NCBI GenBank assembly: GCA_027307325.1
Contig: DAHUXE010000107.1
Coordinates: 1-32,134 of the forward strand
Origin: Gammaproteobacteria bacterium
GTDB lineage: Bacteria; Pseudomonadota; Gammaproteobacteria; Steroidobacterales; Steroidobacteraceae
Direction: 5' to 3'
Length of the DNA stretch: 32,134 nucleotides
In this document: positions 1 to 14,546 of the stretch, piece after piece
Numbering within the stretch: the stretch's first letter is position 1
How the letters are laid out: every line of letters starts with the position of its first letter
The notes under the pieces: model-generated
What the model saw: only the letters and a program-made list of their open reading frames with translations
Database searches by the model: none
Told to the model about the DNA's origin: nothing
Position numbers and translations under genes: made by a program

Positions 1-1633
1 TCCTCAAAATCTTCCCCACATTCGACTTCGGCAGGTCCTTCCTGAAATGCACGTGCTTCGGCACTTTGTAACCTGCAAGAGATTCACGCATATATTCAAT
101 AACAGCCTTCTCCGTGAGCGCCGGATCCTTGCGCACCACGAAGAGCGCGACCACTTCGCCTGAGTGCTCGTCGGGCTGGGCGACTGCGGCGGCCTCGAGG
201 ATCCCGGGATGCGCCGCGGCGACGGCCTCGACCTCGTTCGGGTAAACGTTGAAGCCCGACACCAGGATCATGTCCTTCTTGCGGTCCTCGATGAAGACGA
301 AGCCGCGCTCGTCCATGTGGCCGACGTCGCCGGTCCGCAGGTATCCGTCCGGCAGCATCACCTTGGCGGTCTCGTCCGGGCGGTTCCAGTAGCCCTTCAT
401 GACCTGCGGGCCGCGCACGCAGATCTCGCCGACCTTGCCGAGCGGCAGGTCGTTGCCGGCATCGTCCTTGATCGCGACCTCGGTGGAGGGGATCGGCACG
501 CCGATCGAGCCGTTGAAGTCCTCGGCCGGCGGGTTGATGCACGCGGCGGGCGAGGTCTCGGTGAGGCCCCAGGCCTGGGAGAGCACGCTGCCGGTCGCCT
601 CCTTCCACTTCGCCGCGACCGCGCCCTGCACTGCCATGCCGCCGCCGAGCGAGATCTTCAGTCCGCTGAAATCGATCTTGTCGAAGCCCGGCGCGTGCAG
701 CATCGCGTTGAAGAGCGTGTTGACGCCCGAGATGAAGTTGCACGGATAGCGCTGCATGTCGGCGATGAGGGACTTGATGTCGCGCGGATTGATGATGAGG
801 AGGTTCCGCCACCCGAGGCGCGCGAACACCATGCAGTTACAGGAGAGCGCGAAGATGTGATAGAGCGGGATGGCGGTGAGGAGCGTGCCCTGATCCGGCA
901 GGCTCTCGCCGATCCAGGCCTCCGCCTGCAGTACGTTCGTGCTCACGTTGCCGTGGGAGAGCATCGCGCCCTTGGAGACGCCGGTGGTGCCGCCCGTGTA
1001 CTGCAGGAACGCGAGATCGTCGGGGCCCAGCTCGACCGGTGCGAGCGGCAGGCTCTTGCCCGCGCTCACCGCCGACTTGAACGGCGTCGCTGCCGGGATA
1101 TGCCAGGGCGGCACCTGCTTCTTCACGCGCCGCACGACGAAGTTGACGATTGCGGACTTGGGGAAGGAGAGGAAATCGCCGACGGCGGTGACCAGCACGG
1201 TCTTGAGCTTCGTGTGCGGCAGCACCTTCTCCACGACCTGCGCGAAGTTCTCCAGCACCACGATGGCCGTCGCCCCCGCATCGGTGAGCTGGTGCTCGAG
1301 CTCCGGGGCGGTGTAGAGCGGGTTGGTGTTGACGACGACGAGCCCGGCCCGCAGCGCCCCGAACATGGCGACCGGATACTGCGGGCAGTTCGGCAGCATG
1401 ATGGCGATGCGGTCGCCCTTGTGGAACCCGGCGCGCTGCAGCCAGGCGCCGAAGGCGCGCGACAGTGCGTCGAGATGCCGGTAGGTGAGCGTCGCCCCCA
1501 TGAAGATGTAGGCCACCCGGTCGGCGTGCCTGGCGCAGGTCTCCTCGAGGAGCTGCTTCACCGAGCGCAGCTTCGAGGGGTCGACCTCCGCAGGCACGTA
1601 CGGCGGGTACGCCTTCAACCAGATCTTGTCCAT
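1..1633 (-). CDS. fadD: Long-chain fatty acid--CoA ligase (FadD-like), 3' end cut by window edge
   Basis: This enzyme activates free fatty acids to acyl-CoA with ATP and CoA, the entry step of beta-oxidation. The reading frame is open from the ATG at 1633 to base 1: 544 residues and still open, so the last 10-20 codons are missing (E. coli FadD has 561). The ATP/AMP motif YTGGTTGVSKG lies at residues 212-222, AWGLTET at 354-360, and the fatty acyl-CoA synthetase signature (YLRTGDVGHMDERGF, then DRKKDMILVSGFNVYPNEVE) at about 431-469. The C-terminal domain reaches the conserved PKSNVGKILR, whose lysine is needed for adenylation. It starts 3 bp after the tesA stop, so the two are probably cotranscribed: a thioesterase that frees fatty acids and a ligase that reactivates them. 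Other AMP-binding acyl ligases are possible but less likely given the signature. Confidence 0.93.
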   Translation of the reverse strand, partial: MDKIWLKAYPPYVPAEVDPSKLRSVKQLLEETCARHADRVAYIFMGATLTYRHLDALSRAFGAWLQRAGFHKGDRIAIMLPNCPQYPVAMFGALRAGLVVVNTNPLYTAPELEHQLTDAGATAIVVLENFAQVVEKVLPHTKLKTVLVTAVGDFLSFPKSAIVNFVVRRVKKQVPPWHIPAATPFKSAVSAGKSLPLAPVELGPDDLAFLQYTGGTTGVSKGAMLSHGNVSTNVLQAEAWIGESLPDQGTLLTAIPLYHIFALSCNCMVFARLGWRNLLIINPRDIKSLIADMQRYPCNFISGVNTLFNAMLHAPGFDKIDFSGLKISLGGGMAVQGAVAAKWKEATGSVLSQAWGLTETSPAACINPPAEDFNGSIGVPIPSTEVAIKDDAGNDLPLGKVGEICVRGPQVMKGYWNRPDETAKVMLPDGYLRTGDVGHMDERGFVFIEDRKKDMILVSGFNVYPNEVEAVAAAHPGILEAAAVAQPDEHSGEVVALFVVRKDPALTEKAVIEYMRESLAGYKVPKHVHFRKDLPKSNVGKILR

Positions 1634-2939: not shown

Positions 2940-5428
2940 AGGCGGCAGCGCTGGCGCTGCGAACCCTGGCGCGCGAGTGGCGCTCGGGAGAGCTCGGCGT
3001 GCTGCTGCTCGCGCTCACCGTGGCGGTCGCGGCTCTCACGGGCGTCGGCTTCCTGGTCGGGCGCATCAGCGCCGCCGTGGCGCTGCAGGCGAGTTCGGTG
3101 CTCGCGGCCGACGTACGCCTGAGCTCACCCCGGCCGCTGAGCGACGACTATTTTTCCGAGGCCACGCGCCGCGGGCTTAGCACCGCGAGGAGCACCTCAC
3201 TCCTCTCGGTGGTCTTCAACGGCGACGCGAGTCAGCTCACCAACGTGACGGCCGTGACGGCCGGCTATCCGCTCCGCGGCCGGCTGCTCCTCGCCGCGGA
3301 GCCCTTCGCACCGGGCGCGCCGGCGGCCGGTATCCCGCCGCCGGGCGAGGTCTGGCCCGCCTCGAAGCTGCTCGCCGCGGTCGGCGGCGGGGTCGGCTCG
3401 CAGTTGTCGATCGGCGCGGCCACCTTCCGCGTGACGCGCGTCCTCATCTCGCGCCCCGACCAGGGCGGCACCTTCGCCGAGCTCGCGCCGAGCCTCATCA
3501 TGAACGCGGCGGACCTGCCGGCGACACGCCTCATCCAGCCCGGGAGCCGCGCGAGCTATGCCGGCCTCTTCGCCGGGCAGCGCGCCGCGATCGATGAGTT
3601 CAAGGCCTGGCTTTCGGACCACAAGCTGCGCGGCGAGCGGCTGCGTGACATCACCGACGCCAGCCCCCAGGTGCGCAACGCCGTCGACCGCGCCGGCCGG
3701 TTCCTGAGTCTCGCCAGCCTGGTGAGCGTGCTCTTGTGCGCGATTGCGGTGGCGATGGCGGCGCGGCGCTACGTGCACCGGCACCTCGACACCGTGGCGC
3801 TGCTCAAGACCCTCGGTGCGACGCGTGCCTTCACGCTCGCGGTCGCCGTGCTGCAACTGCTCGCGCTCGCGCTGGTTGCGTCGCTCCTCGGCGCGGTTCT
3901 CGGCTTCCTCGCGCAGGAGTGGCTGCTGCGCACCATCCGCGGACTGCTCGCGGTGACCGAGCTGCCGGCGCCGGGGGCCGCGCCGCTCGCTCGCGGGTTC
4001 ATGACGGCGATCGCGGTGCTCGCCGGGTTCGCGCTGCCGCCGCTCATTCAGCTCGGGCGCGTGCCGGCGCTGCGCGTCCTGCGCCGCGACGTCGGTCCGC
4101 CGCCGCCGCTCATGCTGCTCGCCTTCGGCCCGGCGGTTGCGGTGGTGGCGCTCCTCATCTACTGGGTGGTGCGGGATGCGCGGCTGTTCCTCTATCTGGC
4201 CGTCGGGCTCGCGGCGTTCGTCGCGGTGCTTGCCGTTGCCGGCACGGGGCTGGTGCTCGCCGCCGGGCGCCTCCGCGGGCGCGTGGGGGTGGCGTGGCGC
4301 TTCGGGGTGGCGAACCTGAGCCGCCGCCGTGTCGAGAGCGTCGTGCAGCTCGTGGCCTTCGGCGCCGGGATCATGGTGCTGCTGCTGCTCGGCATCATTC
4401 GCGACGATCTCAACAGCGACTGGAAGCGCACCCTCCCGCCCGATCTTCCCAACTACTTCTTCATCAACATCCCGCCTGCCGAGCGTGACGCCTTCGTCCG
4501 CTTCGTCGAGCAGCAGGGCGCGCGCACCACGCGCGTGCTGCCCATGATTCGCGGGCGCCTCATCGCCATCGACGGGCGCGCGATCGACGCGGGGCGCCGC
4601 GGCGGCCGGGGAGAGGAGGAGAGTTTCGCGACGCGCGAGCAGAACCTCACCTGGACCACCGACTTAGGTGCCGACAACCGTATCGTCGCCGGGCGCTGGT
4701 GGACGCAGCAGGACTCAGGCAGGCCGCTGGTGTCGCTCGCGACCGAGTTCCAGGAGGCGCTCGGGGTGGTCGTCGGCGACCGGCTGACCTTCGATGTCGG
4801 CGGCGAGACCATCGAGGCCACGGTCGCGAGCATCCGCAAGGTGAAGTGGGACAGCTTCCGGCCGAACTTCTTCATCGTGTTCGCGCCCGGGGTGCTGGAC
4901 CGCGTGGCCGGAACCTACATGACGAGCGCGTACTTCAGGCCCGGCACGGCGCGCACGCTCGCCGAGCTCGCGCACCGCTTCCCGAGCGTCTCGATCTTCG
5001 ACATCGAGGAGCTGCTCGATCAGGTGCGCGCCGTGCTCGACAAGGCGGCGCTCGCGGTGCAGAGCGTCTTCGTCTTCACGCTGTTCGCGGGACTCACGGT
5101 GCTGCTCGCGGCGGTGCAGTCGAGCCGCGACGAGCGGCGCTACGAGAGCGCGATGCTGCGTACGCTCGGCGCGAGCCGCGGCACGGTGGTGCAGGGGGTG
5201 CTCGCGGAGTTCGTGACCTTAGGAGCCCTCTCCGGGCTCATCGCCGCGGCCGGCGCCTCGCTCGCCGCCTACTTCCTCACGACGCGCTGGCTCGAGCTGC
5301 GCTACACGTTCGATCTCACGCCCTGGGCGGTCGGCGTCGTGGGTGGAGCCCTGCTGGTGGCGGCCGGCGGCTGGCTCGCAACGCGCTCGGTGGTCAATCA
5401 GCCGCCGCTCACGACGCTGCGGGCCTGA
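2936..5428 (+). CDS. ybbP: Large FtsX-family ABC permease (YbbP-like)
   Basis: An 830-residue inner-membrane permease, close to the E. coli YbbP length (about 800). It has an N-terminal membrane anchor (about 18-45), a first periplasmic domain, a first FtsX core with helices near 257-275, 297-330 and 349-373, and central helices at about 392-447. Next come a helix near 463-487, a second periplasmic domain and a C-terminal FtsX core (about 705-780 and 796-820) holding SSRDERRYESAMLRTLGASR, typical of MacB/FtsX permeases. It overlaps ybbA by 4 bp and with it forms one transporter. The substrate of YbbAP-type systems is poorly defined; the pairing with TesA points to lipids or hydrophobic esters, which is inference. 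The last 31 bp overlap the 3' end of nirD on the other strand. Confidence 0.92.
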   Translation: MKAAALALRTLAREWRSGELGVLLLALTVAVAALTGVGFLVGRISAAVALQASSVLAADVRLSSPRPLSDDYFSEATRRGLSTARSTSLLSVVFNGDASQLTNVTAVTAGYPLRGRLLLAAEPFAPGAPAAGIPPPGEVWPASKLLAAVGGGVGSQLSIGAATFRVTRVLISRPDQGGTFAELAPSLIMNAADLPATRLIQPGSRASYAGLFAGQRAAIDEFKAWLSDHKLRGERLRDITDASPQVRNAVDRAGRFLSLASLVSVLLCAIAVAMAARRYVHRHLDTVALLKTLGATRAFTLAVAVLQLLALALVASLLGAVLGFLAQEWLLRTIRGLLAVTELPAPGAAPLARGFMTAIAVLAGFALPPLIQLGRVPALRVLRRDVGPPPPLMLLAFGPAVAVVALLIYWVVRDARLFLYLAVGLAAFVAVLAVAGTGLVLAAGRLRGRVGVAWRFGVANLSRRRVESVVQLVAFGAGIMVLLLLGIIRDDLNSDWKRTLPPDLPNYFFINIPPAERDAFVRFVEQQGARTTRVLPMIRGRLIAIDGRAIDAGRRGGRGEEESFATREQNLTWTTDLGADNRIVAGRWWTQQDSGRPLVSLATEFQEALGVVVGDRLTFDVGGETIEATVASIRKVKWDSFRPNFFIVFAPGVLDRVAGTYMTSAYFRPGTARTLAELAHRFPSVSIFDIEELLDQVRAVLDKAALAVQSVFVFTLFAGLTVLLAAVQSSRDERRYESAMLRTLGASRGTVVQGVLAEFVTLGALSGLIAAAGASLAAYFLTTRWLELRYTFDLTPWAVGVVGGALLVAAGGWLATRSVVNQPPLTTLRA

Positions 5429-5778
5429 GGCTCCTCACGGCCCTTGGCGGTTCTCGCCGCTGGACGTGGCGTGACCTCGAGCCACACGTCCCCGTCGACG
5501 ATCCGCACCGGGTAGCGGCCCGTGCAACCCTCGTCCGGCGCTTCCGCCGCGCCGTCACGGAGCCCGATCACCCAGCCGTGCAGCGGGCAGGTGACCTGCT
5601 CGCCGTGCACGATGCCCTGCGACAAGGGCCCGCCCTTGTGCGGACAGCGGTCGCGCAGGGCGAAGACCCGATTGTCGGCCGTGCGAAATACGGCGATGGT
5701 GGTTCCGGCGACCTCGACCACGCGGGCGCCGAGCGCGGGGATGTCGCTGATGGCGCAGATCCTCGACCACTCGCTCAT
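5398..5778 (-). CDS. nirD: Nitrite reductase (NADH) small subunit, Rieske-type
   Basis: A 126-residue Rieske-fold protein, the small subunit of cytoplasmic NADH-dependent nitrite reductase. Cluster ligands are visible: CPH (Cys45, His47) and CPLH (Cys64, His67), so it keeps the full 2Fe-2S set that many enterobacterial NirD proteins have lost. This resembles the assimilatory NirD/NasE type. The start ATG overlaps the nirB stop (ATGA), which implies coupled translation and a fixed subunit ratio. The 3' end overlaps the convergent permease gene by 31 bp. The C-terminal tail after about residue 105 is charged, low in complexity and unlikely to be structured. A stand-alone Rieske ferredoxin is the alternative, but the nirB junction argues for NirD. 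Confidence 0.93.
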   Translation of the reverse strand: MSEWSRICAISDIPALGARVVEVAGTTIAVFRTADNRVFALRDRCPHKGGPLSQGIVHGEQVTCPLHGWVIGLRDGAAEAPDEGCTGRYPVRIVDGDVWLEVTPRPAARTAKGREEPQARSVVSGG

Positions 5779-8228
5779 TGCCGCGTGACCTCGCTCTCGG
5801 ACGTCACGCGCAGCGACTCGAATTCATGCCGGGCCACGCCCGCGACCCGTTCCTTCCAGGGGTCGGGCTCCCCGCTGATCGCGAACTGCAGCCGCTCGTA
5901 GAGCGCCTTGCGCTGCGCGCGGTCGCTGACCACCCTCGCCTTGCAGTAGTCGAGTCCGACGCGCGCCACGAAATGCACGGTGCGTTCCAGGTAATAGCCT
6001 TCCTCCCGGTACAGCTGCAGGAAGGCGCCGGCGTACTCCAGCACCTCCTCCCGGGTTTCCACCTTGGCGAAGAATTGCGCCACCTCGGTCTTGGTACCGC
6101 CGTTTCCGGCGACGTGGATCTCCCAGCCCGAGTCCACCGCAATCACGCCGACGTCCTTGATGCCGGCCTCGGCGCAATTGCGCGGGCAGCCGGAGACCGC
6201 CAGTTTCACCTTGTGCGGGGCGTACATGCGCCACAGCGCCTGTTCGAGCTCGATGCCCATCCGGGTCGAGTCCTGGACGCCGAACCGGCACCACTCCGAG
6301 CCCACGCAGGTCTTCACCGTCCGCAGCGCCTTGGCATAGGCGTGGCCCGAGGGCATATCGAGATCGCGCCATACGGCCGGCAGATCCTCCTTGCGGACGC
6401 CGAGCAGATCGATGCGCTGGCCGCCGGTGATCTTGACCGTCGGAATCCGGTACTTGTCGACCACGTCGGCGATGCGGCGCAGCTCCGCGGCGCTGGTCGA
6501 GCCGCCCCACATCCGCGGCACCACCGAGTAGGTGCCGTTCTTCTGGATGTTGGCATGCGCGCGCTCGTTGATGAACCGCGATTGCGGATCGTCCTGCGCC
6601 TCGCGCGGCCACGTCGACAGCACGTAATAATTGAGCGCCGGCCTGCACCTGGCGCAGCCGTTCACCGTGCGCCAGGCCATCATCTTCATGGCCGCGTCCA
6701 CCGAGAGCAGGTGCTGCTCGCGGATCGTGCGGCGCACTTCCTCGTGGGTGTGCTCGGTGCAGGGGCACAGCGGCTTCGCCCTGGGAGCAGGCGAATAGTC
6801 CCCGCCGGCTGTGATCGCCAGCAGCTGCTCGACGAGACCGGTGCAGGAGCCGCAGGACGAGGAGGCCTTGGTGCGCTTGCGCACCTCCTCGAGCGTGAAG
6901 AGGCCCTGTTCCTTGATGGCCTTGACGATCGTGCCCTTAGCTACGCCGTTGCAGCCGCATACCTCCATCGCGTCCGTCATGGCCGCGGCGCGCTCGCGCC
7001 CCTGGTAGCCGCCGTTGCCAAGGTTGCGGTCGCCGTACATGAGCTGCGGACGCAGCGGCGCGACGTTCGTGCCCTCGCGCAGCAGCTTGAAGTACCAGGC
7101 GCCGTCGGCGGCATCGCCGTACATGACGCTGCCGATGAGCTTGTCGTCCCTGATCACGAGCTTCTTGTAGACGCCGGCCGCCGGATCCGAGAGCACGATC
7201 TCTTCCGCGCCCCTGCCGCCCTGGAAGTCGCCGGCCGAGAACAGGTCGATCCCGGTCACCTTGAGGCGCGCGGAGGGCACCGAGCCGCAGTAGCGCCCGA
7301 TGCCGTACTGCGCCAGATGGTTGGCGGCGACCTTGGCCATCTCGAAGAGCGGCGCTACCAGCCCGTAGGCAACGCCGCGGTGGCTCACGCATTCACCCAC
7401 GGCATAGATGCGCGGATCGAAGGTCTGCATCGTATCGTTGACGACGATCCCACGGTCGCAGTGCAGGCGCGCCGATTCGGCGAGTTCGGTGTTGGGGCGA
7501 ATGCCGACGGCCATCACGACGAGCTGTGCCGGCAGCCGGCGCCCGTCGGCGAGCTCGACCGCGCACACCCGTCCCGCGGCGTCGCCGAGCACGGCCTGCG
7601 TCTTCGCCTCGAGAACGAAGCCGATGCCGCGCGCCTCGAGCGATTCCTTGAGCAGCAGCGCCGCCGCCCGGTCGAGCTGCCTTTCCATAAGCCAGGGCAT
7701 GAGGTGCACCACCGTGACTCTCATGCCGCGCGCCCTGAGTCCATTGGCGGCCTCGAGCCCGAGCAGGCCTCCGCCGATCACGACCGCATCGGAGAAGCGC
7801 GCGGCTGCCTCGATCATGCTCCGGGTGTCCTGGGCGTCGCGGTAGGTGATGACGCCTTCGAGCTCCTTGCCCGGGAGCGGCAGAATCACCGGCCGCGAGC
7901 CGGTCGCAAGCAGCAGCCGGTCGTAGTGCGCGGCCGTGCCGTCCTCGCTCACGACGCGCCGGGCGGTGCGGTCGAGCTTCACCACCTTGCTGTCGAGGTG
8001 CAGGCGGATGCCGTGGCGCTCGTACCAGATGAGGTCGTTGAGGATGATCTCCGGCAGCGTCTGTTCGCCGGAGAGCACCGGCGACAGCAGGATCCGGTTG
8101 TAGTTGGGCAAGGGCTCTGCGCCGAATACGGTGATGTCGTAGAGGTCGGGCGCGTACTTCAGCAGCTCCTCGAGCGTGCGCCCGCCCGCCATGCCGTTAC
8201 CGACCACGACCAAACGCTGCTTCTGCAT
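5775..8228 (-). CDS. nirB: Nitrite reductase (NADH) large subunit
   Basis: An 817-residue siroheme enzyme that reduces nitrite to ammonium with NADH in the cytoplasm. Domain order: FAD/NAD-binding reductase (about 1-400; VVGNGMAGGRTLEELL at the N-terminus, VVIGGGLLGLEAANGL for NAD), a BFD-like 2Fe-2S domain (CGCNGV...SCGSC, about 424-470) with a second Cys set (CPCTEHTHEEV and NGCARCRPALNYY), then the nitrite/sulfite reductase half-domains. The 4Fe-4S/siroheme ligands are CVGSEWC (about 641-647) and CPRNC (about 680-684). The ATG at 8228 has AGGGA a few bases upstream; codons upstream of it remain open but look non-coding. E. coli NirB has 847 residues. No nitrate reductase gene is in the window, so whether nitrate also feeds this pathway is unknown. 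It is probably driven by the sigma-54 promoter at 8270-8284. Confidence 0.96.
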   Translation of the reverse strand: MQKQRLVVVGNGMAGGRTLEELLKYAPDLYDITVFGAEPLPNYNRILLSPVLSGEQTLPEIILNDLIWYERHGIRLHLDSKVVKLDRTARRVVSEDGTAAHYDRLLLATGSRPVILPLPGKELEGVITYRDAQDTRSMIEAAARFSDAVVIGGGLLGLEAANGLRARGMRVTVVHLMPWLMERQLDRAAALLLKESLEARGIGFVLEAKTQAVLGDAAGRVCAVELADGRRLPAQLVVMAVGIRPNTELAESARLHCDRGIVVNDTMQTFDPRIYAVGECVSHRGVAYGLVAPLFEMAKVAANHLAQYGIGRYCGSVPSARLKVTGIDLFSAGDFQGGRGAEEIVLSDPAAGVYKKLVIRDDKLIGSVMYGDAADGAWYFKLLREGTNVAPLRPQLMYGDRNLGNGGYQGRERAAAMTDAMEVCGCNGVAKGTIVKAIKEQGLFTLEEVRKRTKASSSCGSCTGLVEQLLAITAGGDYSPAPRAKPLCPCTEHTHEEVRRTIREQHLLSVDAAMKMMAWRTVNGCARCRPALNYYVLSTWPREAQDDPQSRFINERAHANIQKNGTYSVVPRMWGGSTSAAELRRIADVVDKYRIPTVKITGGQRIDLLGVRKEDLPAVWRDLDMPSGHAYAKALRTVKTCVGSEWCRFGVQDSTRMGIELEQALWRMYAPHKVKLAVSGCPRNCAEAGIKDVGVIAVDSGWEIHVAGNGGTKTEVAQFFAKVETREEVLEYAGAFLQLYREEGYYLERTVHFVARVGLDYCKARVVSDRAQRKALYERLQFAISGEPDPWKERVAGVARHEFESLRVTSESEVTRQ

Positions 8229-8254
8229 GCCGATTCCCTGCGCTCGCCCCGCTA

Positions 8255-8263
8255 CCCCTGGGG
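8255..8263. promoter_or_regulatory. Palindrome CCCCTGGGG at predicted nirB start site
   Basis: CCCCTGGGG in the wider context GCTACCCCTGGGGAGCAG. Its centre (8259) sits at about -1 of the transcript predicted from the sigma-54 element. A second copy lies at 8453-8461. The 1-nt centre rules out an RNA hairpin, so a protein operator is more plausible. The function is inferred. Confidence 0.4.
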
Positions 8264-8269
8264 AGCAGA

Positions 8270-8284
8270 GCAAGATCGGTGCCA
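8270..8284 (-). promoter_or_regulatory. Sigma-54 (-24/-12) promoter for nirBD
   Basis: On the minus strand the sequence reads TGGCACCGATCTTGC followed by T. This matches the RpoN consensus TGGCAC-N5-TTGCW, with the invariant GG and GC 10 nt apart. The predicted transcript start is near 8258, giving a leader of about 30 nt that holds the nirB ribosome site. RpoN promoters need an enhancer-binding activator, and a candidate NtrC dyad lies upstream at 8325-8341. Confidence 0.75.
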
Positions 8285-8324
8285 CCCCGCGCGGCGCGGG
8301 ATCCGTGCCCCTGGCCCTCGCACC

Positions 8325-8341
8325 TGCACCGATTCGGGGCA
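8325..8341. promoter_or_regulatory. NtrC-like binding dyad
   Basis: TGCACCGATTCGGGGCA matches the NtrC dyad TGCACY-N5-RGTGCA except for one base in the right half (GGGGCA instead of GGTGCA). Its centre is about 75 bp upstream of the predicted nirB start and 117 bp upstream of the predicted channel-gene start, so one site could serve both sigma-54 promoters. A perfect 8-bp inverted repeat links its left half (GCACCGAT, 8326-8333) with ATCGGTGC in the nirB promoter (8275-8282). Confidence 0.5.
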
Positions 8342-8423
8342 CGCCCGGCCGCTTTGCGTCAGCCTGGATCAGGACGTGCGGCCCACCCTGCGGCTCGAAG
8401 CCTGGAAGGAGGCGCGGTGGCCG

Positions 8424-8439
8424 TGGCATGTGCGTTGCA
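8424..8439 (+). promoter_or_regulatory. Sigma-54 (-24/-12) promoter for the nitrite channel-cysG operon
   Basis: TGGCATGTGCGTTGCA fits the RpoN consensus with GG (8425-8426) and GC (8437-8438) exactly 10 nt apart; only the C of GGCAC is changed to T. The predicted start is near 8450, 50 nt before the ATG at 8500. It faces away from the nirBD sigma-54 promoter. Confidence 0.68.
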
Positions 8440-8452
8440 TCCCTAACTCGCA

Positions 8453-8461
8453 CCCCTGGGG
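8453..8461. promoter_or_regulatory. Palindrome CCCCTGGGG at predicted channel-gene start site
   Basis: This is the second copy of ACCCCTGGGG followed by (C)AGCAG, centred at about +8 of the predicted transcript. It is the same core as at 8255-8263 and sits in the equivalent place relative to the other sigma-54 promoter. It is a candidate shared operator. Confidence 0.4.
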
Positions 8462-8499
8462 CAGCAGCACCGGGCTTGCCAGACCTCGAGGAGCTTGAG

Positions 8500-9372
8500 A
8501 TGGATTACGTGGGACCTAACGCAGTCGTGGCAGCCATGGTGAGTGCGGGAGTCGCCAAGGCGCGACTCCCGCGCAGCGATCTGCTCATTCGCGGCGCCCT
8601 GTCGGGCGCTCTGCTCGGGGTGGCAACGAGTCTCGCGCTCGGGGCGGCGGTACAGACGGGTCAGGGCATCGTGGGCGCGCTGCTCTTCCCCGCCGGCTTC
8701 GTGATGATCGTGCTGCTCGGTCTCGAGCTCCTCACGGGGAGCTTCGCGCTGCTGCCGCTCGCGTGGATCGAGGGCAAGGCGAGCGCGGCCGAGGTGCTCG
8801 GGAACTGGAGCTGGGTGTTCCTCGGCAACCTGTTGGGCGCATTGCTCTATGCCGCGCTGCTTGCCACCGCGCTCTCGACGATGGGCAGCGGTGCGCAGCA
8901 GGATCCGCTGGCCGCGAAGCTGCTCGCCGTCGCGACCGCCAAGACGCTCGGCTACCAGCACGCCGGGCTGGCGGGCCTCGTGACGGTGTTCGTCAAGGCG
9001 ATGCTCTGCAACTGGCTGGTCTGCCTCGGCGTCGTCATGGCGATGACCTCGGCCTCCACCGTCGGCAAGATCGCCGCCGCCTGGTTGCCGATCGTGGTGT
9101 TCTTTGCCCAGGGCTTCGAGCACTCGGTGGTCAACATGTTCGTGATCCCGGCGGGCATGATGTTGGGAGCCAGGGTCGGCGTCGCGGACTGGTGGTTGTG
9201 GAACCAGTTGCCGGTGACGCTCGGTAACCTGGTCGGCGGGTTTGGCTTCACCGGGCTTGCCCTGTACCTCACCTATCGCCCTCAGACGGAATCCGGTATC
9301 GAGCGAGCGCCCGGTACGCCGCTGCAGCCGCTGCCGGAAGTACCCCGCGACGCGGCGCTCCCCGCGACCTGA
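8500..9372 (+). CDS. Formate/nitrite transporter (FNT) family channel, probable nitrite uptake
   Basis: A 290-residue FNT-family membrane protein, a pentameric channel type with six helices per subunit. Family marks are NWLVCLGVVMA in the fourth-fifth helix region and the conserved GFEHSVVNMFVIP late in the protein. The N-terminus (SDLLIRGALSGALLGVATSLA) is also typical. The ATG at 8500 follows GAGGAG with 6-nt spacing, a strong ribosome site. It is divergent from nirBD and 13 bp upstream of cysG, so nitrite (NirC/NitA-like) is the likely substrate; formate channels share the same fold. The C-terminal tail of about 30 residues is Pro-rich and probably cytosolic. It is longer than E. coli NirC (268 residues). 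Confidence 0.9.
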   Translation: MDYVGPNAVVAAMVSAGVAKARLPRSDLLIRGALSGALLGVATSLALGAAVQTGQGIVGALLFPAGFVMIVLLGLELLTGSFALLPLAWIEGKASAAEVLGNWSWVFLGNLLGALLYAALLATALSTMGSGAQQDPLAAKLLAVATAKTLGYQHAGLAGLVTVFVKAMLCNWLVCLGVVMAMTSASTVGKIAAAWLPIVVFFAQGFEHSVVNMFVIPAGMMLGARVGVADWWLWNQLPVTLGNLVGGFGFTGLALYLTYRPQTESGIERAPGTPLQPLPEVPRDAALPAT

Positions 9373-9385
9373 TCGGCGCCGCGCC

Positions 9386-10879
9386 GTGGACTATCTGCCG
9401 GTCTTTCTGCGCATCGAGGGGCGCCGCGCTGTGGTGGTCGGCGGCGGCCAGGTCGCCGCGCGCAAGGTGGACGCGCTGGCGAAGTGCGGCGCCCGCGTGA
9501 CGGTCGTGGCCCCGCGCCTCTCGCCGCAGCTCGCGCAGCGCGCCGGCGCCGCTCAGCTCGAGCACCTCGCGGCGGAGTTCTCTGCGGCGCAGCTCGACGG
9601 CGCGGCGCTCGCGGTCGCGGCGACCGATGATGCGGCCGTGAACGGCGCCGTCTCGCGCGCTGCACAGGCGCGGCAGATTCCCGTCAACGTGGTCGATGAG
9701 CCCTCGCTCTCGAGTTTCATCTTCCCCGCCATCGTCGACCGCTCGCCGCTCGTCGTGGCGGTGAGCTCCGCCGGCGGCGCCCCGGTGCTGGCGCGGCGGG
9801 TGCGCGCACAGATCGAGGCGCTGCTGCCGGCGCGCCTCGGCGCGCTCGCGCGTTTCATGCGCGAGCGCCGCGCGCAGGTGCGGCGCGTCCTCGGCGCGCC
9901 CGCGCGCCGTGCGTTCTGGGAGCGCATCGCCGCGGGCGCCACCGGGAGCCGCGTGCTGGCCGGAGACGAGGCGGGGGCAGCGCAGGCCTTCGCGCGCGAG
10001 CTCCTCGGCTCGCAGGCCGGCGCTTCTCGGGCCACCGCCGGCAACATCTGCGGCGAGGTGTACCTGATCGGTGCCGGCCCGGGTGACCCGGACCTGCTGA
10101 CACTGCGGGCGCTGCAGCTGCTGCAGCAGGCCGACGTCATCCTCTACGACCGCCTGGTGCCGGATGCGCTGCTCGACAGGGCGCGCCGCGATGCGCAGCG
10201 GATCTTCGTCGGCAAGGGGCCCGGCGAGCACGCACAGCAGGCGTACATCAACGAGCTGCTGGTCGAGCTTGCACGAGCGGGCAAGCGCGTCGCGCGCTTG
10301 AAGGGCGGCGATCCCTTCGTGTTCGGCCGCGGTGGCGAGGAGCTCGAGGTGCTCGCCTCGCATGCCATCCCCTGTCTCGTCGTTCCGGGCGTCACCGCCG
10401 CGCTCGGGGCCGCCGCCTGCGCCGGCATTCCGCTCACCCATCGGGGGCTGTCACATAGCGTGACCCTGGCGTCCGGTCACGCGGCTCTCGATGGCTCGCT
10501 CGACTGGCGCTCGCTCGCGCGCAGCGCGCAGACCGTGGTGTTCTACATGGGCGTGGCGCAGCTGCCGCGCATCGTCGCCAGGTTGCGCGCCGCGGGCGCG
10601 GCTGCCGATGTGCCCGCCGCCCTCATCGCCGAGGCGACCCTGCCCGGGCAGCGGGTGCTGCGGGCGGAGCTCGAGCACATCGCGGAGCTCGCCGCCCGCG
10701 AGCAGATCGCCTCACCGGCGCTGTTGATCGTGGGTGCGGTGGCGGCGCTTTCCGGGGTGGGATCACCTCCCCGGGCTCGCAGCCGTGCGCAGCCTCAGCG
10801 CTGCGCGATACCGATCGTCACCCAGGAATCCGGCTGCGGCTCGAGGCGCATGGTGAGCCCCTCGATGGTCAGCAGGTAG
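9386..10879 (+). CDS. cysG: Siroheme synthase CysG (trifunctional)
   Basis: A 497-residue fusion that makes siroheme from uroporphyrinogen III. The N-terminal Met8/SirC-like part (about 1-210) is an NAD-binding dehydrogenase/ferrochelatase with GGGQVAARK (19-27) and NVVDEPSLSSFIFPA. The C-terminal part (about 222-460) is the SAM-dependent uroporphyrinogen III methyltransferase, with VYLIGAGPGDPDLLTLRAL, VILYDRLV and RLKGGDPFVFGRGGEE. The only sensible start is the GTG at 9386, 13 bp after the channel gene. It supplies the siroheme of NirB, which explains the shared operon. The last 40 or so residues are Arg/Pro-rich, have no family counterpart I know of, and overlap the convergent gene by 85 bp; E. 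coli CysG has 457 residues. Confidence 0.95.
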   Translation: MDYLPVFLRIEGRRAVVVGGGQVAARKVDALAKCGARVTVVAPRLSPQLAQRAGAAQLEHLAAEFSAAQLDGAALAVAATDDAAVNGAVSRAAQARQIPVNVVDEPSLSSFIFPAIVDRSPLVVAVSSAGGAPVLARRVRAQIEALLPARLGALARFMRERRAQVRRVLGAPARRAFWERIAAGATGSRVLAGDEAGAAQAFARELLGSQAGASRATAGNICGEVYLIGAGPGDPDLLTLRALQLLQQADVILYDRLVPDALLDRARRDAQRIFVGKGPGEHAQQAYINELLVELARAGKRVARLKGGDPFVFGRGGEELEVLASHAIPCLVVPGVTAALGAAACAGIPLTHRGLSHSVTLASGHAALDGSLDWRSLARSAQTVVFYMGVAQLPRIVARLRAAGAAADVPAALIAEATLPGQRVLRAELEHIAELAAREQIASPALLIVGAVAALSGVGSPPRARSRAQPQRCAIPIVTQESGCGSRRMVSPSMVSR

Positions 10880-12597: not shown

Positions 12598-13419
12598 TCA
12601 GCTGGTCGAGCCGGAGAGGAAGTACTCGATCTTGTCGCGATAGGTGCGCGAGAGCTTCAGCTCGTGCCCGCTCTCGAGGGTGAGGAAGTACTCGCCGTTC
12701 ATGTGGGCACGGAGGCTGCGCACCAGGCGCAGGTTAACGATCGTCGAGCGGTGCACCCGCTGGAACAGCTTCGGATCGAGCAGCTCCTCGAGCTCCTTCA
12801 TGGTGCCGCGCAGGATGTGGGTCTCGCCGCCGGCGTGGATGCACATGTAGTCGCCGGCCGCATCGACCCACTGGATGCTCGCCACCGGCACGCGTACGGT
12901 CTCGCGTCCCTGGCGGATCGGCAGCACCTCGGGGCGCCCGCCGTCGAGCGCCTCGCGGCCGCGCTCGAGCAGCTCATCGAGCGCGAGCTGTCCGCAGCCG
13001 GTGATCTCCGCGATGATCTGCATCAGGCGATCGCGCTGCGCCGCGGCGCTGCGCGCCCGCAGGTGCTCGCGCACCCGCTCCACCGCCTCGGCGAAGCGCT
13101 GCTCGTCGATGGGTTTCAGCAGATAGTCGACGGCGCGCGCCTCGAACGCCTGGATCGCGTACTGGTCGTAGGCGGTGACGAACACCACCAGCGGGAACGA
13201 TTCCTGCGGCAGGTGTGCCAGCACCTCGAAGCCCGACATGCCCGGCATCTGGATGTCGAGGAACACCAGGTCCGGCTTGTACTGCTGGATGGCGGCGAGC
13301 GCCTCGCGGCCGTTGGCGCATTGCGCCACGATCTCGAAGTCCGCGAGCTCGCGCGTGCGGATCTCGAGCCCGCGCCGTGACAGCACCTCGTCGTCGACGA
13401 TGATCGTGTGCACCTTCAT
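12598..13419 (-). CDS. LytTR-family response regulator (YehT/LytR type)
   Basis: A 273-residue DNA-binding response regulator. The receiver domain (about 1-122) has acidic Asp9/Asp10, phospho-acceptor Asp55 in VFLDIQMPG, Thr82 in VTAYD and Lys102 in LLKPID, so all switch residues are present. The LytTR DNA-binding domain covers about 165-268 (IQWVDAAGDYMCIH, then FQRVHRSTIVNL and ELKLSRTY). The linker at 123-160 is predicted helical. The ATG overlaps the kinase stop (ATGA at 13416-13419), so the two are coupled and almost certainly form one two-component system. LytTR regulators often control membrane or surface genes, and the next gene downstream encodes a membrane protein. An AlgR-like role is possible; the target is unknown. 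Confidence 0.94.
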   Translation of the reverse strand: MKVHTIIVDDEVLSRRGLEIRTRELADFEIVAQCANGREALAAIQQYKPDLVFLDIQMPGMSGFEVLAHLPQESFPLVVFVTAYDQYAIQAFEARAVDYLLKPIDEQRFAEAVERVREHLRARSAAAQRDRLMQIIAEITGCGQLALDELLERGREALDGGRPEVLPIRQGRETVRVPVASIQWVDAAGDYMCIHAGGETHILRGTMKELEELLDPKLFQRVHRSTIVNLRLVRSLRAHMNGEYFLTLESGHELKLSRTYRDKIEYFLSGSTS

Positions 13420-14546
13420 ACGTGAACGCCCCCCGAACGCCGCGCGCTCAGGTTCCGCTGGAGCGAGCGTTCCTCGGGCGGTGCGGTCTCGAGCGGCAGC
13501 GCCATGTCGACCCGCAGCCCCGGGTGCGTGTTGAGCGCCGCGAAGCGGCAGTTCTCCCCGTAGAGCACCTTGAGCCGCTCGCGCGTGTTGGCAAGCCCGA
13601 CGCCGCGGCGGTCGCCAGTCGGCGGCCCGTCGGGCAGCCCCGGGCCGTCGTCGATCACCGAGAGCTCGAGCAGCCCCTCGCGCGTGCGGCCCTCGATGCG
13701 CACCAGCCCTCCCTGCTCGCGCGCCGATACCGCGTATTTCAGCGAGTTCTCCAGCAGCGGCTGCAGCAGCAGGCTCGGCACCAGCGCCTCGAGCGCCGGC
13801 TCCTCGATCGCGTACTCGAGCTTGAGCCGCTCGCCGAAGCGCAGCCGCTCGGTGCCGAGATAGAGGTCGAGGGCCTCGATCTCCTGGCGCAGCGTCACCT
13901 TTTTCATCGGGTCCTGGTCGAGCGTGTAGCGCAGGAAGTCCGACAGCCGCGCGACCGCGTGGTTCGCCTTGCGGTTCTGGTTGTCGAGAATCAGCGTCGA
14001 GATGGCATTCAGCGTATTGAAGAGGAAGTGGGGATTGAGCTGGTAGCGCAGCATCTTGAGCTGCGCTTCCTGGGCGAGCGCCACCGCCTTGAGCATCGCC
14101 TCCTCCTGCTGCCGCTTGGATTCGTAGAACTTGATGCCGAAGTACAGCACGCTCCAGCACAGCAGCAGGTACGCCGTCGAGAGCGCGCCGCCGAAGATCT
14201 CGAACCGGGTCTGCATCTGCCAGTCCGGTGCGACGAATTCGATGTAGGAGAGATTGATCACCACGCGCAGCGCGAGCGCCGTCACGTAGCAGGTGAGGAG
14301 CACGCCGACGATGATGATGCGCGGCGCGCGGCCCCACAGCTGCCGGTAGATGTAGCGCATCGGTGCCGAGAGGACGAATCCCGCGAGCGATGCCACCAGC
14401 CACACCCGCGCATAGCTCGCGGGCTTCTCGTAGAACAGCGCGCCGACGTACTGCGTGATGCCGTACGCCGTCCAGCCCGCCGCGTGCAGCGTCCAGAAGA
14501 GGACGCTGCGGTTCTTACGGAATTGCTCGAGAGTCGGCATCTTCAT
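13416..14546 (-). CDS. LytS/YehU-type membrane sensor histidine kinase
   Basis: A 376-residue sensor kinase. Four hydrophobic segments fill residues 12-140 with short loops, so it probably senses within or near the membrane rather than through a periplasmic domain. A short coiled coil (about 142-168) leads to the His_kinase motif QLNPHFLFNTLNAIS with His173, followed by a HATPase_c domain with N-box LLENSLKYAV (Asn267), DDGPGLP (299-305) and GVGLANTRERL (315-325). The ATG at 14546 follows GAGGGA; an ATG two codons later is a weaker choice, and the upstream extension to 14585 is unlikely. It overlaps the regulator gene by 4 bp. The 180-bp upstream gap holds a perfect GGCATATGCC palindrome (14607-14616). 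Confidence 0.93.
   Translation of the reverse strand: MKMPTLEQFRKNRSVLFWTLHAAGWTAYGITQYVGALFYEKPASYARVWLVASLAGFVLSAPMRYIYRQLWGRAPRIIIVGVLLTCYVTALALRVVINLSYIEFVAPDWQMQTRFEIFGGALSTAYLLLCWSVLYFGIKFYESKRQQEEAMLKAVALAQEAQLKMLRYQLNPHFLFNTLNAISTLILDNQNRKANHAVARLSDFLRYTLDQDPMKKVTLRQEIEALDLYLGTERLRFGERLKLEYAIEEPALEALVPSLLLQPLLENSLKYAVSAREQGGLVRIEGRTREGLLELSVIDDGPGLPDGPPTGDRRGVGLANTRERLKVLYGENCRFAALNTHPGLRVDMALPLETAPPEERSLQRNLSARRSGGVHV

Follow-up and report, generated by a model that had tools for sequence, protein, structure and literature searches.

How is transcription governed from the 271-nt gap that separates nirB (minus strand, ATG at 8228) from a channel gene read in the opposite direction (plus strand, ATG at 8500)? 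A sequence-only reading of the window, by which we mean the whole 32,134-nt stretch of DNA analysed here, had placed two divergent sigma-54 promoters in the gap, one driving nitrite reduction and the other nitrite uptake and siroheme synthesis. We propose that the gap is, with high probability, a bidirectional nitrogen-starvation control region for nirBD and channel-cysG. The features that matter to this proposal are, in window coordinates:

5398–5778, minus strand: nirD-like ORF for a Rieske-type small subunit, downstream of nirB; CPHKGGPLSQG...CPLHGW in its translation, recognized as Rieske-type by eye
5775–8228, minus strand: nirB, nitrite reductase large subunit; TIGR02374 at 896.7 bits (cut-off 578.35); inferred start ATG at 8228
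8269–8284, minus strand: predicted sigma-54 -24/-12 promoter of nirBD; TGGCACCGATCTTGCT, 0 mismatches to TGGCAC-N5-TTGCW; inferred start 8258
8325–8341, no strand assigned: NtrC-type box; TGCACC-GATTC-GGGGCA, agreeing at 11 of 12 positions with TGCACC-N5-GGTGCA
8424–8439, plus strand: predicted sigma-54 -24/-12 promoter of the channel gene and cysG; TGGCATGTGCGTTGCA, 1 mismatch; inferred start 8450
8500–9372, plus strand: formate/nitrite transporter (FNT family) channel gene; PF01226 at 222.7 bits (cut-off 34.6)
9386–10879, plus strand: cysG-type siroheme synthase; NF007922 at 559.9 bits (cut-off 400)

The gene assignments differ in firmness. The nirD-like ORF had no NCBIfam match at E ≤ 1e-30, which is a stringent threshold for a protein of this length; a relative lies downstream of nirB in 79 of 80 loci sampled from named genomes (the best 80 of 586 confirmed nirB relatives, to which all counts out of 80 below refer). 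The channel passes the PF01226 family model yet scores too low for the fnt, FocA and NirC models (57.4 bits against a cut-off of 293 for NirC NF008595), so nitrite as its substrate was inferred from context. The GTG start of cysG, chosen by eye, lies 13 nt past the channel stop.

Two outward-facing sigma-54-type sites

The two sites face outward, and in both the GG and GC are 10 nt apart. Sigma-54 promoters carry their GC at -13/-12, and this numbering gives the inferred starts 8258 and 8450, with leaders of 30 nt to the nirB ATG and 50 nt to the channel ATG (start codons inferred). The spacing, the opposite orientation and the leader lengths of about 30 and 50 nt given in the sequence-only reading were thus all recovered, at 0 and 1 mismatches.

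With at most one mismatch allowed, TGGCAC-N5-TTGCW occurs twice in the whole window, both times in this gap. With up to two mismatches the window holds 13 matches against a shuffle mean of 10.3, a count equalled or exceeded in 25 of 100 shuffles, and we therefore placed weight on strict matches alone. Across the genome (2,984,702 bases in 199 contigs, 97.88% complete), there are 44 matches with at most one mismatch, including 8 exact ones, whereas the reversed control pattern has 96. As the motif shows no enrichment, the claim rests on position, orientation and conservation rather than frequency. From 44 matches per 2.98 Mb, simple arithmetic gives about 0.004 expected in the gap, so two outward-facing matches would be improbable by chance, which bears out the earlier view that chance is unlikely. 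The lack of genome-wide enrichment is what speaks for both matches being accidental, an explanation that we regard as extremely improbable given their position, orientation and conservation and the sites found near relatives.

One of the eight exact genome matches is the nirB site. Among the other seven, the only one assigned by eye lies upstream of a gene that reads as type IV pilin, near an enhancer-binding-protein gene, and provides a same-genome control; at least one (L008) sits within a long ORF. A sigma-54-like site with 2 mismatches (L200, 1444–1459) lies just 5' of the sole P-II gene found in the genome.

Scoring with an RpoN weight matrix, a check suggested with the sequence-only reading, gave a divided outcome. 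In a scan of the window with a matrix trained on 40 related nirB sigma-54 sites (training minimum 15.5), the two sites took the top two ranks. The minus site came first (19.9), within the training range; the plus site came second (10.75, or about 10.8), below every training site and near decoys at 10.5 (10.54) and 9.1. Of the two predicted promoters, that on the plus strand is the weaker.

In E. coli, nirBDC-cysG is a single operon controlled by FNR and NarL. The gene content is equal to that here (nirB, nirD, FNT channel, cysG), which is arranged instead as two divergent sigma-54-type units. Control by oxygen and nitrate through FNR and NarL, as for E. coli nirB, would draw on a single NarL-type heptamer, TACCCCT at 8253–8259, of which about 0.3 are expected by chance (rough estimate). 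The site search disfavours it: the best match to an FNR-type TTGAT-N4-ATCAA site has 4 mismatches of 10, confirming the earlier remark that no such site is visible. We consider this form of control very unlikely.

Conservation in the genus and order

Just one further genome of the genus (G167, locus L138) carries the cluster, with NirB 90% identical and the channel 75% identical. Its gap has accumulated many substitutions and indels outside three blocks. The minus sigma-54-type site is identical at 16 of 16 positions, the box core GCACCGATTCGGGGC is unchanged while its outer two bases are altered symmetrically (T/A to C/G), and the plus site retains TGGCATG..CGTTGCATC. The minus site and the box are 40 nt apart in both genomes, and the box and the plus site 82 nt apart in the window and 81 nt in G167.

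Outside the genus, 396 genomes of the order yielded four nirB relatives. In two of these (L099, L201), the 1500 nt upstream of nirB hold no sigma-54 site even with two mismatches allowed; in one (L203) an exact forward site lies upstream of nirB, and in the fourth (L202) exact sites there point both ways. The two-way sites of L202 lie at about 1268–1463, and the gene divergent from nirB there was matched by neither the FNT nor the NarK query used.

Sites near relatives of nirB and of the channel

The 80 nirB loci (best 80 of 586) bear mostly betaproteobacterial titles, with some plain 'Proteobacteria' and one 'Gammaproteobacteria'; they are related to each other, so counts over them are not independent. 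Within 200 nt upstream of nirB and at no more than one mismatch, a forward site occurs in 40 of the 80 and a reverse site in 2; shuffles gave a mean of 0.21 and at most 2, and inside-gene controls 0 of 80. For the 40 loci without a near site, the search of upstream DNA up to 4 kb returned 25 forward and 2 reverse matches, and 15 of the 80 loci have no forward site in the upstream DNA examined (up to 4 kb). Twenty-one of those 25 forward sites lie 3.1–3.8 kb upstream of nirB (for example L018, L020, L064, L065, L068 and L083), as might be expected at the start of a longer operon.

A divergent NarK-family transporter gene lies beside nirB in 9 of the best 80 of 586 loci, and in 8 of these 9 a reverse sigma-54 site occurs within 450 nt upstream of nirB (at most one mismatch). 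Six of the nine NarK-family proteins were scanned and scored 255–297 bits against TIGR00886, below its cut-off of 311.7. These loci share with ours two outward sigma-54 sites, with nirBD on one side and a nitrate/nitrite transporter on the other; the transporter there is of the MFS type, whereas here an FNT channel is joined by cysG.

Channel relatives outside this cluster (n = 39) show the same strand preference, with a forward site within 400 nt (at most one mismatch) in 14 of 39 and a reverse site in none. In no case among the 39 is nirB divergent from the channel within the DNA examined, and one locus (L157) has nirB and nirD ahead of the channel in the same direction. Seen from the nirB side, the channel adjoins nirB in none of the best 80 of 586 loci, and an FNT relative lies about 2 kb or more upstream in two of the 80 (L063, L089). 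Among the loci examined, the layout of nirBD facing an FNT gene is confined to this genome (G000) and G167.

These data bear on whether the nirB promoter alone is sigma-54 dependent, with the plus match a chance one and the channel and cysG served by another promoter. The mismatch in the plus site and its low matrix score, near those of decoys, would suit such an arrangement. We nevertheless find it quite unlikely, as the plus motif and its distance from the box are retained in L138, the channel relatives carry forward sites and no reverse ones, and no sigma-70-type match was found at 8200–8530.

An NtrC-type box and its candidate activator

The genome encodes a single RpoN (TIGR02395, 469 bits against a cut-off of 277). 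Its presence, the conservation in L138 and the strand-specific enrichment near nirB and channel relatives support the two divergent sigma-54 promoters of the sequence-only reading, and RpoN control of the nirB–channel gap is a prediction well supported by the sequence. That reading also called for an enhancer-binding protein and left open which one; NtrC is now the best candidate, given a box between the promoters and an NtrC in the genome (L009).

The box is a near-palindrome that the sequence-only reading had missed. NtrC-type palindromes follow the consensus TGCACC-N5-GGTGCA, and the search pattern was widened by one base to admit 8325–8341, where GGGGCA stands for GGTGCA. Its centre lies about 75 nt from one inferred start and about 117 nt from the other. 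In the best 80 of 586 nirB loci, NtrC-type boxes (up to two mismatches, 450 nt) accompany 20 of the 40 loci with a near sigma-54 site and 4 of the 40 that lack one; shuffling gave means of 1.86 and 2.2, respectively.

A second place in the genome has a similar layout. On contig C42, a sigma-54-type site with 1 mismatch (1167–1182, minus strand) and an NtrC-type palindrome (1327–1343) precede a gene that we called glutamine synthetase (glnA) by eye from its translation. As glnA is an expected NtrC target, the C42 layout serves as a positive control. By-eye comparison of the match lists found sigma-54-like and NtrC-like matches within 500 bases of each other at two places in the genome, C42 and this gap.

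PF00158 matches eight proteins in the genome, five of them strongly. Of the five scanned, L009 alone passes the NtrC cut-offs (TIGR01818 and NF008176), with 697.9 bits against 558.6 for TIGR01818 (ntrC). The same sigma-54 promoters could answer to another activator sensing nitrite, nitric oxide or redox, such as the NtrX-like L013, or L011 or L012; five strong PF00158 proteins, one of them past an NtrC cut-off, leave room for this, as does the mismatch in the box. The box, however, resembles the palindrome 5' of this genome's glnA, none of the five proteins passes the NorR cut-off, and alpha- and betaproteobacterial NtrC regulons, in the accessible part of the published account, take in nitrite reductase, narK and nrtABC (PMC5343134). 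Another activator is accordingly unlikely in our estimation, and RpoN control probably acts through NtrC.

We propose that, under nitrogen limitation, NtrC, presumably phosphorylated, would bind the box at 8325–8341 and loop to sigma-54 RNA polymerase at either -24/-12 promoter. ATP hydrolysis would then open the nirBD promoter on the minus strand and the promoter of the channel and siroheme synthase genes on the plus strand. Scarce ammonium would in this way lead the cell to produce nitrite reductase, its siroheme cofactor and the means of nitrite uptake together.

An accessory island for nitrite

Searched at E ≤ 1e-200, 56 of the 58 genomes in this genus lack this NirB, as do 27 of the 28 with at least 90% completeness and no more than 5% contamination. 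The adjacent permease gene, which ends at 5428 in the window, is widespread: of the 41 same-genus genomes searched, 36 have a relative, the closest (91%) being that of G172. In five of nine same-genus permease loci, sequence matching the window from 10.79 kb onwards follows within about 70 bases, so about 5429–10790 is an insertion relative to those five. The other four lack such a junction: three (L130, L131, L137) have nothing matching, and one (L129, from G172) has a nirD-like tail beside the permease at about 1362–1500, yet no matching NirB in that genome (87% complete), which suggests a remnant left by decay of the island. G167 has its permease and its cluster on separate contigs, and the permease flank has no match to the cluster.

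The top named NirB relative among the matches listed is 76% identical and titled Betaproteobacteria. The island was likely gained by transfer, with loss from most of the genus as a possible alternative. We also considered a mis-binned contig and judged it unlikely, in view of the permease relatives in 36 of 41 genomes and the 10.79-kb continuation in five of nine loci.

PF00384 matched two proteins of the genome, one scoring above the cut-off for formate dehydrogenase alpha and the other above that for NuoG. As neither reaches the cut-off of a nitrate reductase model, the search turned up no molybdenum nitrate reductase, although at 97.88% completeness absence is not proof. The island would therefore serve nitrite from outside.

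Elsewhere in the window, an ORF at 12598–14403 has response-regulator and LytTR domains confined to its second half (residues 334–593); its first half has no Pfam match, and its start may therefore be over-extended.

Relation to known systems

The sequence-only reading described this control as unlike that of E. coli, which is fair for the missing FNR site. RpoN/NtrC control of assimilatory nitrite reductase is already described, so the locus is less unusual in this respect than that reading implied. In the accessible parts of the sources, NtrC regulons of alpha- and betaproteobacteria cover assimilatory nitrite reductase together with narK and nrtABC (PMC5343134). Nitrite reductase and nitrate/nitrite transporters under NtrC are the common ground; here the transporter is an FNT channel accompanied by cysG, in a genome that yielded no molybdenum nitrate reductase. 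In Pseudomonas aeruginosa, the available text places nirBD-PA1779-cobA under RpoN with NtrC and NasT (PMC8092218). That system likewise combines RpoN with an NtrC activator and includes a siroheme-pathway gene, but it is one operon on which NasT also acts, whereas our locus is split into two divergent units, and a search of 8200–8530 found nothing terminator-like. For Azoarcus olearius BH72, the portion available reports nirB and nirC induced >50-fold in nitrogen-fixing growth and reduced assimilatory nitrate reductase expression in an ntrBC mutant (PMC8467165); unlike here, a full nitrate assimilation set is present.

Accounts of Pseudomonas putida, also available in part, are mixed. Its nirB was predicted as a new, likely member of the sigma-54 regulon (PMC3162934), yet in an rpoN mutant nirB is still induced under nitrogen limitation (5.21 versus 13.37 in the wild type), and its regulation is called not clear (PMC7801951). 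Strict RpoN dependence may therefore not hold everywhere.

Less usual here are the FNT channel and cysG as divergent partner, the lack of a detected molybdenum nitrate reductase and the accessory-island setting. We found no description of nirBD facing FNT-cysG with two sigma-54 promoters in the open-licence literature, for which partial text makes this weak evidence. The chances seem evenly balanced that both divergent sigma-54 promoters share one NtrC box as their enhancer and lie on a mobile island devoted to nitrite alone, in a bacterium without a molybdenum nitrate reductase, an acquired cassette thereby joining the host NtrC circuit. If the proposed control holds, nitrogen starvation would govern nitrite uptake, cofactor synthesis and reduction alike in a lineage that carries the cluster as an accessory island, and the compact region of two promoters and one box would offer a test bed for enhancer sharing between divergent sigma-54 promoters.
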